Of a DNA stretch of 20,022 nt, positions 13,800 through 20,022 are shown in pieces (the first letter of the stretch is position 1; every line of letters starts with the position of its first letter). Below the pieces are notes generated by a model. The model was not told the origin of the DNA. It saw nothing but the letters and a program-made list of their open reading frames with translations, and did no database searches. Origin of the DNA: a virus. The stretch spans positions 1 through 20,022 of IMG/VR virus record IMGVR_UViG_3300024264_001880. One strand, given 5' to 3'. Both the position numbers and the translations under genes were made by a program.

Positions 13800-14090
13800 T
13801 TACCTTCTAGCTTTGTAGCTATATGTTAATCTTTCTTGTGATGCCTTTTTGAGCCATCTCTTTCTGCCCTCTGCAGCTTTACGCTTTCTTTTTGCAGTTG
13901 GCTTTTCATAAAATTCTCTAGCTCTTAGTTCTTTTACGATCCCAGCTTTTTCAATCTGTTTTCTAAATTTTCTAAGTGCTATATCAAAAGGCATATCACT
14001 TTGAGGCCTTCTATCTTTTGGATGTCTTGGCCCTGGTCTCAAATCAACGGTTCTACCGTTAATTGGTTTATTTTTATTATTGTATCTCAT
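13800..14090 (-). CDS. rpsU: Ribosomal protein bS21 homolog
   Basis: A 96-aa protein whose second half is a clear bS21: [20 protein letters not shown], then [20 protein letters not shown] and a basic tail. An N-terminal extension of about 32 residues ([20 protein letters not shown]...) is longer than usual for bacterial bS21 (about 65-75 aa in all). bS21 sits on the 30S platform near the anti-Shine-Dalgarno end of 16S rRNA. Phage copies are thought to exchange into host ribosomes and favour phage mRNA. The ATG at 14090 lies 7 bases from the -10 box of its promoter, so its mRNA is predicted to be leaderless. Structured RNA elements lie on both sides. Confidence 0.92.
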
Positions 14091-14186: not shown

Positions 14187-14215
14187 AAAAAAGAGAGCCC
14201 TTGTGAGGCCCTCTT
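14187..14215 (-). terminator. Rho-independent terminator of the large ncRNA
   Basis: The minus-strand RNA forms AAGAGGGCCU-CACAA-GGGCUCUCUU, a 10-bp stem (two G-U pairs) with a 5-base loop, followed directly by UUUUG. Arms are at 14215-14206 and 14200-14191. This is the clearest intrinsic terminator in the window and fixes the 3' end of the RNA at about 14187. Confidence 0.92.
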
Positions 14216-14750
14216 CGTAAATCAGTTTGGGGCGGTGAACCTTTATTAACGGGATTCGTCAAGTAGTGTAGAATCGTTAATCGTTGTTCTGCCGCTACCC
14301 CGAGCTTAAAGCCCCTATTATTGAAACTTAAAGTCGACTGACTGGCCTAGGACTTACGTCTTACTTTGTTAATATCAGTATTCCAAGTAGGGGTAGCAAT
14401 TAAGCCTCCTAAATTTCCTAAAGATAAAGACCCTTGACCGCTAAGTCATTGTGTCGTTATAAATCGCAAAATCTATAACCTGTCTCGTTTCAGCACTGCG
14501 GGGTTTCTCTCCCACTATGGTATCAAGCGTTTCCTCATACCCTGGCTCGTCTCAGTCTATATTGATTTGTTCTATCCCGCCATATTATCACTTTCCAGCG
14601 CGGTCTTCCTCAAGCTACCGTACGGGGTGTCCACCTTTAATCTTGCCTCTGAACGATCGATAAAGTCGTCATCTCGTGCAAACTGTCTCCGCGGTATCTA
14701 ACATACGTTTTGTTAGTTTCTCTTACCACCGGGGGTGTTTCCCTCAATAT
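14187..14750 (-). ncRNA. Candidate large structured ncRNA (~564 nt)
   Basis: About 560 bases hold no protein gene but have a perfect promoter at one end (start near 14750) and an intrinsic terminator at the other. GC is about 40-48 percent by line, above the coding DNA. Stems I can pair by eye are CTAACA/TGTTAG (14698-14716), CGGT..ACCG with an inner CTT/AAG near 14600-14621, GTTATA/TATAAC (14456-14479), a 96-base-spaced GCTACCCC/GGGGTAGC domain stem (14294-14301 with 14390-14397), and TTAACG+ATTC/GAAT+CGTTAA (14246-14280). Several 6-8 base palindromes are present (CCGTACGG, AGTCGACT, CCGCGG, CGATCG). Size, phage setting and ornateness recall the GOLLD, ROOL and OLE classes, but I cannot match a consensus. 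I found no tmRNA, RNase P or intron hallmarks. Confidence 0.8.
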
Positions 14751-14756
14751 AAGATA

Positions 14757-14785
14757 ATTATATCAAGTTGTTTCGTCTTTGTCAA
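14757..14785 (-). promoter_or_regulatory. Strong promoter of the large ncRNA
   Basis: On the minus strand TTGACA (14785-14780), 17-bp spacer, TGA then TATAAT (14762-14757), with AAAAAAGGG upstream. Predicted start near 14750, where the structured, GC-richer sequence begins. Confidence 0.92.
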
Positions 14786-17464: not shown

Positions 17465-17880
17465 TACTTAAATAATCCTATCTTCTCTCCGGCTTTAATT
17501 CTACGGTCATATTCCTCAGGTGAGTCTGGATATCTCCACCCCCATGCTGCTCCTAGTGCCATAAAGGTACCAGAATAAGCTACTGCTTTCCAGTTTCCTG
17601 TGAATACAATCATACACAATAAAGCAAATGCCATAAATCCTAACATCATGTACTTTGCTTTTCTTGGGAATACTTTCTTTGTTTCCCAATTTGTTAAGAA
17701 TGGTCCAAATAATTTATGGTTATATAACCAATTGTGCATTCTATCTGAACTCTTTGCAAAACAATATGCTGCAAATACTGCTGGAATACTAAATGGTATC
17801 CCTGGTAGAATCACTCCTACGTAAGCAACTCCTAAACTTAAAAATCCTAATCCACCCCATGCTAACTTTTTCATGTTCAT
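17464..17880 (-). CDS. YbaN/DUF454 family inner-membrane protein
   Basis: A 138-aa membrane protein. The first part (LGFLSLGVAYVGVILPGIPF, then SIPAVFAAYCFAKSSDRMHN) and WLYNHKLFGPFLTNWETKKV match the conserved DUF454 (YbaN) block, in which GIVLPLLPTTPFLL is followed by AS..F..SS...H.WL..H...G. Three to four membrane spans are expected (about 8-40 and 75-110). The cellular family's role is not known; in proteobacteria ybaN-like genes sit near heme or iron functions in places, which is intriguing beside ALAS, but I would not rely on it. The C-terminal tail is cytoplasmic and basic. Its ATG overlaps the GroES stop (ATGA). Confidence 0.8.
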   Translation of the reverse strand: MNMKKLAWGGLGFLSLGVAYVGVILPGIPFSIPAVFAAYCFAKSSDRMHNWLYNHKLFGPFLTNWETKKVFPRKAKYMMLGFMAFALLCMIVFTGNWKAVAYSGTFMALGAAWGWRYPDSPEEYDRRIKAGEKIGLFK

Positions 17881-18146
17881 GTTAATATCGCCTTGATGTG
17901 TTCTGCAGATACTATAACTGCATCTTGTCCACCTATACGCACTGGCATAGCTTTATCCCAAGATAGATATACTGTATCACCTTTGTTTAAGTGTGCTGCA
18001 CTTGTGGCAGGACCTACTGCAATTACAACACCAGGTTCTGATGCTGTTGCTTTAACTTCAGATGATAATATAATACCACCTTCTGTTTTATTTTCTTTTG
18101 GAGCAGCTGCTACTAACACTTGCTCACCTATCATTTGAATACTCAT
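17877..18146 (-). CDS. groES: GroES-type co-chaperonin
   Basis: An 89-aa protein of GroES type. It starts SIQMIGEQVLVAAAPKENKT and has the mobile loop EGGIILSSEV (about 22-31), equivalent to the GGIVL loop that docks on GroEL. PGVVIAVGP (38-46) and KGDTVYLSWDKA (55-66) are family motifs. It would replace or alter the host co-chaperonin during capsid folding, the job of T4 gp31, but here with real GroES sequence. At 89 aa it is slightly shorter than the bacterial ~95. It starts inside an ATGA overlap with the membrane/coiled-coil gene. Confidence 0.9.
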   Translation of the reverse strand: MSIQMIGEQVLVAAAPKENKTEGGIILSSEVKATASEPGVVIAVGPATSAAHLNKGDTVYLSWDKAMPVRIGGQDAVIVSAEHIKAILT

Positions 18147-19007: not shown

Positions 19008-20022
19008 TCATATTTGTTGGAATGTATCCTCTAATGCTTCAACTAATTCGTACATCATAGTTGTTGTGTGAATCGGAGTTGGAGTAATCCTCAATCGTTC
19101 TGTTCCAACATCTACTGTTGGACTATTAATTGGCTGAATATAAATTCCATGTTTGTTTAAAAGATAATCCGACATCTCTTTACATCGTTTTGCTTCACCA
19201 ACCATTATTGGAATAATATGAGTACAAGCTTCAGGATGTACTTCTAACCCAGCTTCAATTACCATATCTTTAATAATTTTACTATTTCGCTGATGAGTTT
19301 CTCTTACTTCATTATGTTCCATTAAAAATCTTATTGATGCAATACTACCTGCGCACATTACTGGACTTAAACTTGTTGTGAATATAAATCCACTTGCTAC
19401 ACTTCGAATAGCATCAAGAACAGTAGCACCACCAGCAATGTAACCTCCATGGCCACCAAACGCTTTTCCCAAGGTTCCATTTATAATATCTACCCTATCT
19501 GATAATCCTAATTTTTCACAATAACCTGCACCAGTATCACCGTATAAACCTACTGCATGAACTTCGTCAATATAAGTTATTGCATTGTACTTATCTGCTA
19601 AATCACAGATTTCTTTAATTGGTGCAACATCACCGTCCATACTATAAACACTTTCAAATACTATACATGGAGTTTGGAAATTCTCTTGACATGTTTTCAA
19701 TGCCGATTCCAATTCTTCCATATTATTATGTTCCCATATAATCTTATCTGCTCGACTATGTTTAATTCCCATAATCAATGAGGCATGATTTTTATTATCT
19801 GAAACAAAACAAATATTTGGAATAATACGACTGAGAGCGATCATGCTCCATTCGTTAGCTACATAAGCTGAAGTGAATAATAAACCACGTTCTTTCTTAT
19901 GTAATTGTGACAATACATTTTCCAGTGTTACATGGTAATGGGAGGTACCCCCAATATTACGAGTACCTCCACTACCTGAACCTGTTTTATCCAACGCAGT
20001 TTGCATAGCGTCAATAACATAC
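19008..20022 (-). CDS. hemA: 5-aminolevulinate synthase (ALAS), 5' end outside window
   Basis: A PLP enzyme of the alpha-oxoamine synthase family that condenses glycine and succinyl-CoA to 5-aminolevulinate, the first step of heme synthesis by the Shemin route. Diagnostic features from the first visible Met (20006): [17 protein letters not shown] (10-26; the GGTRNI form is typical of ALAS, unlike GGSR in BioF), [14 protein letters not shown], the PLP-contacting DEVHAVG (147-153), the PLP lysine at about 181 in [10 protein letters not shown], and [11 protein letters not shown] near the C-terminus with the substrate-binding arginine. The frame is open to the window edge (..VIDAMQTAL), so some N-terminal residues are missing. 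No disruption is visible and it looks functional. Shemin-pathway genes have been reported in aquatic phages, as I recall. Confidence 0.93.

Follow-up and report, generated by a model that had tools for sequence, protein, structure and literature searches.

A family of large structured noncoding RNAs in marine T4-like phages and its possible self-assembly

To our knowledge, few noncoding RNAs of very large size and ornate fold have been described, and we know of no function for the two that belong to phages, GOLLD and ROOL. GOLLD, from phages and prophages, exceeds 800 nt in many members and forms a 14-mer nanocage. ROOL, also from phages and prophages, measures 659 nt in env-120 and assembles into an octameric nanocage with a conserved kissing loop. 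The OLE RNA of Bacillota is about 600 nt long, forms a dimer, and binds bS21 (PMC12054373; PMC12286853). The structures of all three RNAs have been solved (PMC12286853). In the same work, loop L9.3 of OLE illustrates how copies of an RNA pair via a loop whose inner bases change yet remain palindromic, and the argument rests on the inability of neighbouring bases of one chain to pair together (PMC12286853).

The DNA analysed here, referred to as the window, is a 20,022-nt stretch of a virus record in IMG/VR, and a large RNA is predicted on its minus strand (Table 1). The original prediction described a gene-sized, ornate noncoding RNA with a perfect sigma70 promoter and an intrinsic terminator of its own. 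Both elements are present, and the terminator stem is longer than the 10 bp first given. The G+C content, said to be well above that of the surroundings, is 0.445 for positions 14187–14750 compared with 0.356 for the whole window, and this region is the maximum among all 564-nt stretches of the window. The absence of a credible protein frame has also been confirmed: no ORF of at least 50 aa is found inside 14187–14750, the longest stop-free stretch in the RNA region (87 codons) is ordinary for shuffled sequences (mean 80, 95th percentile 115), and no conserved reading frame through the RNA was found among the relatives. Folding of the single sequence gives z = -1.68, which is marginal and weak evidence alone. 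Unlike single-sequence folding, the comparative evidence for a structured RNA is decisive.

The promoter arrangement is conserved in the family. All 30 distinct upstream sequences of the relatives contain TATAAT and a 17-nt spacer, and the distance from the end of the -10 box to UAUUGA is exactly 7 nt in every one of them, while the upstream sequence outside the promoter elements varies. Because this distance is fixed, transcription is inferred to start within the first one or two bases of helix P1. The putative 5' end, which has not been mapped, would therefore lie at or beside the U of UAUUGA (14749).

Table 1. Predicted features of the RNA locus, in coordinates of the window
Feature	Position	Strand	Basis or remark
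Whole RNA, ~563 nt	14187..14749	minus	5' end inferred from promoter distance, 3' end from terminator
Sigma70 promoter, TTGACA-17-TATAAT	14757..14785	minus	12/12 consensus matches
Intrinsic terminator	14187..14216 (stem 14216-14190)	minus	11 pairs, 5-nt loop, U run
Helix P1	UAUUGA 14749-14744 with UCAAUA 14565-14560 (end of D2)	minus	pairing
Domain 1 (D1): P0 (GGG/CCC), P2, P2b, P3, P4	14629..14749	minus	model R2, covariation
Hairpin P2b (CUAAC...GUUAG)	14698..14716	minus	candidate symmetric kissing loop, ACGU at 14708-14705
Domain 2 (D2): P5 (CCCR/YGGG), P6, P7 with GGAA tetraloop	14557..14636	minus	model R3
Domain 3-4 (D34): P9 closing P10 to P16	14335..14556	minus	model R1
Helix P9, long-range	ACUG 14556-14553 with CAGU 14344-14341	minus	
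Hairpin P10, conserved 13-nt loop GNNGAAACNCUNN	14519..14541	minus	5-bp stem
Hairpin P12, 9 bp	14456..14479	minus	both partners vary in 9/9 pairs when relatives are compared
3' domain D5: element C and M3 hairpin, 13-nt loop UACACUACUUGAC	14246..14315	minus	covarying stems
bS21 (PF01165), downstream gene, not part of the RNA	13800..14090	minus	Pfam E 3e-16
bS21 promoter	14126-14098	minus	12/12 consensus, separate from RNA promoter

With the bS21 gene next to the RNA as bait, 54 loci on viral contigs were obtained, the closest of which (L002–L010) also bear the RNA, and conserved words taken from these were used to collect further loci. A final scan with a degenerate pattern added only four loci, which suggests that the family is restricted to a single phage group. 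The nucleotide profile search gave 71 loci, which correspond to 61 distinct IMG/VR contigs, the window's own included, once loci cut twice from one contig are merged. At a similarity cut-off of 97.5%, 23 distinct cores remain, and the most divergent domains show only about 45–60% identity among relatives. Chance matches to the search pattern (e.g., L057, L058, and L106–L111) served as a negative control and do not match the RNA models. Bacterial genomes were scanned with a short, unspecific pattern, and none of the resulting loci is a relative of the RNA.

The T4-type major capsid gene gp23 has been found in 12 of the 15 records tested, one of the 12 being HTVC008M, an isolate without the RNA that was included as a control. 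In most family records gp23 lies on the opposite strand, no more than about 1–2 kb from the RNA. A search of 13 RNA-bearing records showed no more than one copy of the RNA in any of them. This single copy in T4-like phages, the invariant promoter geometry, and the covariation presented below support the strong selection that had been postulated. No isolate phage was found with the RNA. BLASTN against isolate phages matched only promoter-like or tRNA pieces, and the RNA model has no match in the whole genomes of HTVC008M, RcXuper, and DSS3P8, an absence that proves little given so few genomes. For the DNA ligase, the nearest isolate proteins come from phages of Alphaproteobacteria (45–49% identity); this similarity is only a hint of a possible alphaproteobacterial host, and the host has not been identified.

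No match to the RNA is found in Rfam 15 at the gathering score, or for classes A, B, and C, L104, and L141 at E values up to 5–10. Membership of GOLLD, ROOL, or OLE is thus rejected by the Rfam models even under permissive settings, and no intron or ribozyme family matches either. The likeness to GOLLD and ROOL that had been suggested holds as an analogy between large phage RNAs often located at tRNA islands, but not as membership of either family. Literature searches, which covered only open-access publications, returned no description of this RNA. The features that this RNA shares with GOLLD are its large size and ornate, noncoding character, its phage origin, its frequent proximity to tRNA islands, a contrast between a better conserved part and a more variable one, and self-complementary covariation in one loop. 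Unlike GOLLD, it has a core of only 403–487 nt (range of the 23 distinct cores) and an invariant 5' start, and whole domains can be swapped or lost, as in L096. It resembles ROOL in its total length of about 560 nt, in being encoded by phages near tRNA genes, and in not being an mRNA leader, but the helices, hosts, and phages are different, the phages here being marine and T4-like. With OLE it shares a loop tetranucleotide that switches between palindromes, in the kissing loop of OLE and in P2b here, and a link to bS21 in the window's lineage. On the other hand, this RNA is viral and not cellular, and no OLE-associated protein genes have been seen beside it.

Automatic whole-length alignment and RNAalifold were rejected since they misaligned swapped domains. 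Instead, sequence pairs in a single class guided the drawing of the helices by hand, and the remaining classes served to test them. The resulting layout has three parts, namely the 5' and central domains and a 3' hairpin. Helix P1 connects the 5'-terminal UAUUGA to a UCAAUA located about 185 nt downstream, and the D1 model, R2, matches all 25 relatives searched. In the central domain, P10 is followed in RNA order by P11, P12, and then P13, P14, P15, and P16. P10 is 97.5% paired, and four of its five pairs are changed on both sides. Model R1, which was made from the central domain of class A only, matches classes B and C with E values of 1e-12 to 1e-23, despite their differing P9, P12, P15, and P16 sequences. 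The 8-bp domain stem between GCTACCCC and GGGGTAGC that had been proposed is not conserved, as both halves occur together only in the window. GCTACCCC belongs to the local helix P16 and is kept without the partner element in L007 and L079, and GGGGTAGC is kept without GCTACCCC in L003, L006, and others.

Compensatory changes have been observed at 35 of the 47 pairs of D34. The paired cells changed on both sides number 181 in D34 and 141 in D1, compared with 49.8 and 44.1 in shuffles. The alignment rows of D1 and D34 were fitted to the models, which is a bias in favour of structure; in the unfitted alignment of D2, 15 such cells are found compared with 4.1 in shuffles. Shifting the 3' partners by 1–3 columns lowers the pairing from 92% to 29–46%, and this control destroys the signal in D34, D1, and D2. 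Because shuffles ignore relatedness, a tree-based null was also used, in which substitutions were simulated on the tree of each domain (500 simulations) while preserving the column rates and, for every branch, how many changes occurred and of what kind. The double-changed cells of D34, D1, and D2 (181, 141, and 57) lie far above the means of this null (31.8, 19.9, and 6.0) and above its maxima (68, 43, and 21). Compensatory events on the same branch number 51, 32, and 18 in the three domains, compared with means of 3.6, 2.2, and 1.0, giving a total of about 100 against about 7 under the null. In the per-pair test, all 12 column pairs with E<0.05 fall within drawn helices, and 5 of the 11 pairs of D2 are individually significant. 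The weaker helices P9b, P9c, and P11 have 75–83% of their cells paired. P0 and P1 are invariant among the relatives and, as neither varies, have no support from covariation. Covariation beyond phylogeny is thus found in the predicted helices across 23–25 distinct relatives and supports the predicted ornate noncoding RNA, whose transcript is inferred from sequence alone. That these loci form a structured noncoding RNA family absent from Rfam is a prediction from sequence comparison alone, but one that we regard as close to certain.

The 3' side of the RNA is more variable in its arrangement. In seven loci (L084, L112, L119, L129, L282, L291, and L296), the core is followed by an ordinary terminator and then by a new promoter. 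Other loci have, after the core, a hairpin domain (M3) whose 13-nt loop is conserved. In the hemC lineages, the M3 hairpin itself is the terminator-like stem, and in the window it sits inside element C with a separate terminator after it. The M3 stems covary in 14 distinct forms (UUAAC/GUUAA or AUCUC/GAGAU; AAUUC/GAAUU or AAAGA/UCUUU), and D5 together with the terminator of the window gives a folding z of -4.09. Element C and M3 also occur without the core in L062, L066, and L071, where they come after a short ORF and are followed by another folded element and then tRNA-Glu; the 3' part is therefore a module that does not depend on the core. A further conserved element, GGTAGTTTGAAATCCCTGATTAGTCATCAGG..., lies between the M3 hairpin and tRNA-Glu in L056 (1590-1750), L104 (1200-1360), and similar loci. 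It is apparently structured and has a terminator-like stem at its end, directly before the tRNA.

Whole domains have been exchanged between lineages. L104 and L074 are 93% identical in domain 2 but only 61% and 55% identical in domains 1 and 34. L099 shares domain 1 with L141 (88%) and domains 2 and 34 with L097 (96% and 93%), and L067 and L075 have identical first domains with different central domains. In L096 the central domain is lost, and the retained 5' domain is accompanied by a stub of domain 2 and by the closing UCAAUA. These swaps and the loss in L096 indicate that the domains are real structural units that recombine.

Four palindromes of the window had been proposed as contacts between copies of the RNA. 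They are not conserved, as each occurs in at most 4 of the 23 distinct relatives, and the self-complementary signature is found in a different loop, that of P2b. In every relative with this hairpin, the loop tetranucleotide is ACGU (window and L094), CGCG (L003, L007, L093, L099, and L141), or UGCA (L076, L079, L084, L104, L112, and others), always at the same place in the loop. Self-complementary P2b loops make up six of eight distinct forms, compared with 2.0 in shuffles, and 2 of 500 shuffles reach as high. P2b shows the largest excess over shuffles among the ten hairpin loops examined, and allowing for ten loops the significance becomes about 0.04, so the palindrome signal is only suggestive. 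The lineages of L006, L056, L067, L074, L075, and L082 lack the hairpin; consequently, the P2b loop cannot be essential for every member. By analogy with OLE, copies of the RNA probably associate through this loop, an inference made without oligomer data.

Based on these observations, a mechanism can be proposed. The fixed distance from a host-type sigma70 promoter suggests that the host polymerase would probably make the RNA early and strongly. In the predicted fold, the first nucleotides of the RNA close the 5' domain (P1), the central domain is closed by P9, and the terminator is either preceded by a 3' hairpin domain or formed by it. One copy of the RNA is retained per genome while its sequence, its neighbours, and even its domains change, and the RNA is inferred to act in trans as a stable scaffold and not as a leader. 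Copies would then associate via the P2b loop, whose four central bases change yet stay self-complementary, and the RNA would work like the ornate, homo-oligomeric GOLLD, ROOL, and OLE. We give an even chance to the joint statement that these large, structured noncoding RNAs form a new family and that they act as a self-assembling scaffold. The scaffold role taken by itself falls slightly short of that; the function is inferred, without transcript, abundance, or oligomer data.

The neighbouring genes bear on two of the other explanations. Downstream of the RNA, different lineages have bS21, a hemC-like gene (presumably so, as it was recognised by eye from the protein sequence without a profile search), tRNA-Glu, a tail protein, or others. 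Many members have tRNA-Glu directly after the RNA, and genes for tRNA-Leu, Ile, Ser, and Pro are near it in some; no tRNA genes are present in the window. A cis-acting leader or attenuator would account for the position of the RNA, which precedes bS21 in the window and hemC or other genes in other lineages, and in L007 and L008 an ORF comes directly after it. However, in the window the RNA terminator and the perfect bS21 promoter separate the two, the downstream genes are completely different between lineages, and L084, L112, L119, and L129 are among the loci with their own terminator and a new promoter after it. The changing neighbours and the terminators argue against a leader function, which was already disfavoured and which we consider very improbable. 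Another possibility considered is an OLE-like role, in which the RNA would bind phage or host bS21 and thereby control how much of it reaches the ribosomes. In the window, L003, L006, L007, and L085, a phage bS21 gene is located shortly downstream of the RNA, record G001 (156 kb) has both, though about 30 kb apart, and bS21 is a known partner of OLE RNA (PMC12054373; PMC12286853). Adjacency to bS21 was nevertheless rejected as a family-wide feature, since most other loci have no bS21 nearby and lie instead by hemC, gp23, or tRNA genes. Furthermore, many phages with the same bS21 have no RNA at that place, and no conserved mimic of the anti-Shine-Dalgarno has been found, the AGGAGG in P16 of the window being lineage-specific. 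On sequence evidence alone, a bS21 partner seems distinctly unlikely.

An early host-type promoter and conserved purine-rich loops would also fit an abundant early RNA that acts as a decoy or regulator of a host factor (RNA polymerase, as with 6S RNA, or else an RNase or a defence system that senses RNA), and an arms race would fit the rapid variation and domain swapping. This is unlikely, given that no bulged hairpin resembling an open complex has been identified, Rfam gives no match, and a decoy has no obvious need for three large, strictly covarying domains. The size of the RNA, its intricate fold, and its movement between genomic locations might suggest a ribozyme or a mobile, intron-like element, but the RNA matches no Rfam intron or ribozyme, does not interrupt genes, and has its start exactly at a promoter, and we have seen no gene for a nuclease or reverse transcriptase associated with it, leaving very little room for this explanation. 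Returning to the scaffold, the frequent tRNA neighbours and the bS21 gene in the window's lineage suggest that its target or cargo, not yet identified, is connected with translation. More specifically, the RNA may form a self-assembling particle via P2b, unrelated in sequence to GOLLD, ROOL, and OLE, that exchanges its domains like a kit and holds or blocks a component of translation, i.e., phage tRNAs, bS21, or ribosomal subunits. This specific form is possible but doubtful.

A further, unrelated family in abundant ocean phages provides an independent system for asking why phages invest in such RNAs, and lets the question of self-assembly as a repeated solution be tested. The family offers a solid secondary structure, many natural variants, exchanged domains, and the deletion variant L096, which has the 5' domain only. 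The alignment is ready for a new RNA family entry.

Additional elements have been observed around the RNA. Between the RNA and bS21, L006 (2700-2728), L010 (2900-2953), and L085 have a small ORF for a membrane protein, whose VVGYTDHGIPIKKKEIK-like tail is conserved; the terminator takes its place in the window. A second conserved noncoding element of about 170 nt, RNA2, is located just downstream of bS21 (13790-13620, minus strand). Its 41-nt GACGGCGAGATGGAATCACGGAGTTAATAGCTCTACCATTT is unchanged in L003, L006, L007, L011, L027, and L029, where bS21 is only 64–90% identical. RNA2 has its own perfect promoter in L006–L010, some of its pairs covary, and it has no match in Rfam at either the gathering score or permissive settings. 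Upstream of the RNA, also on the minus strand, two copies of the direct repeat GCACTTTAGTGGACATAAAA (14957-14901) are followed by a second perfect sigma70 promoter (14885-14857). This promoter is about 100 nt upstream of the RNA promoter, has no gene after it, and is missing from L003. The gene at 19008-20021 (minus), truncated where the window stops, specifies a PLP enzyme of the alpha-oxoamine synthase type (PF00155), and a hemC-like gene is found beside the RNA in L076 and L092–L105. These two genes point to haem or related metabolism as a possible theme of the phages. The window also encodes a phage Cpn10 (GroES-like) co-chaperonin (PF00166) at 17877-18146 on the minus strand.
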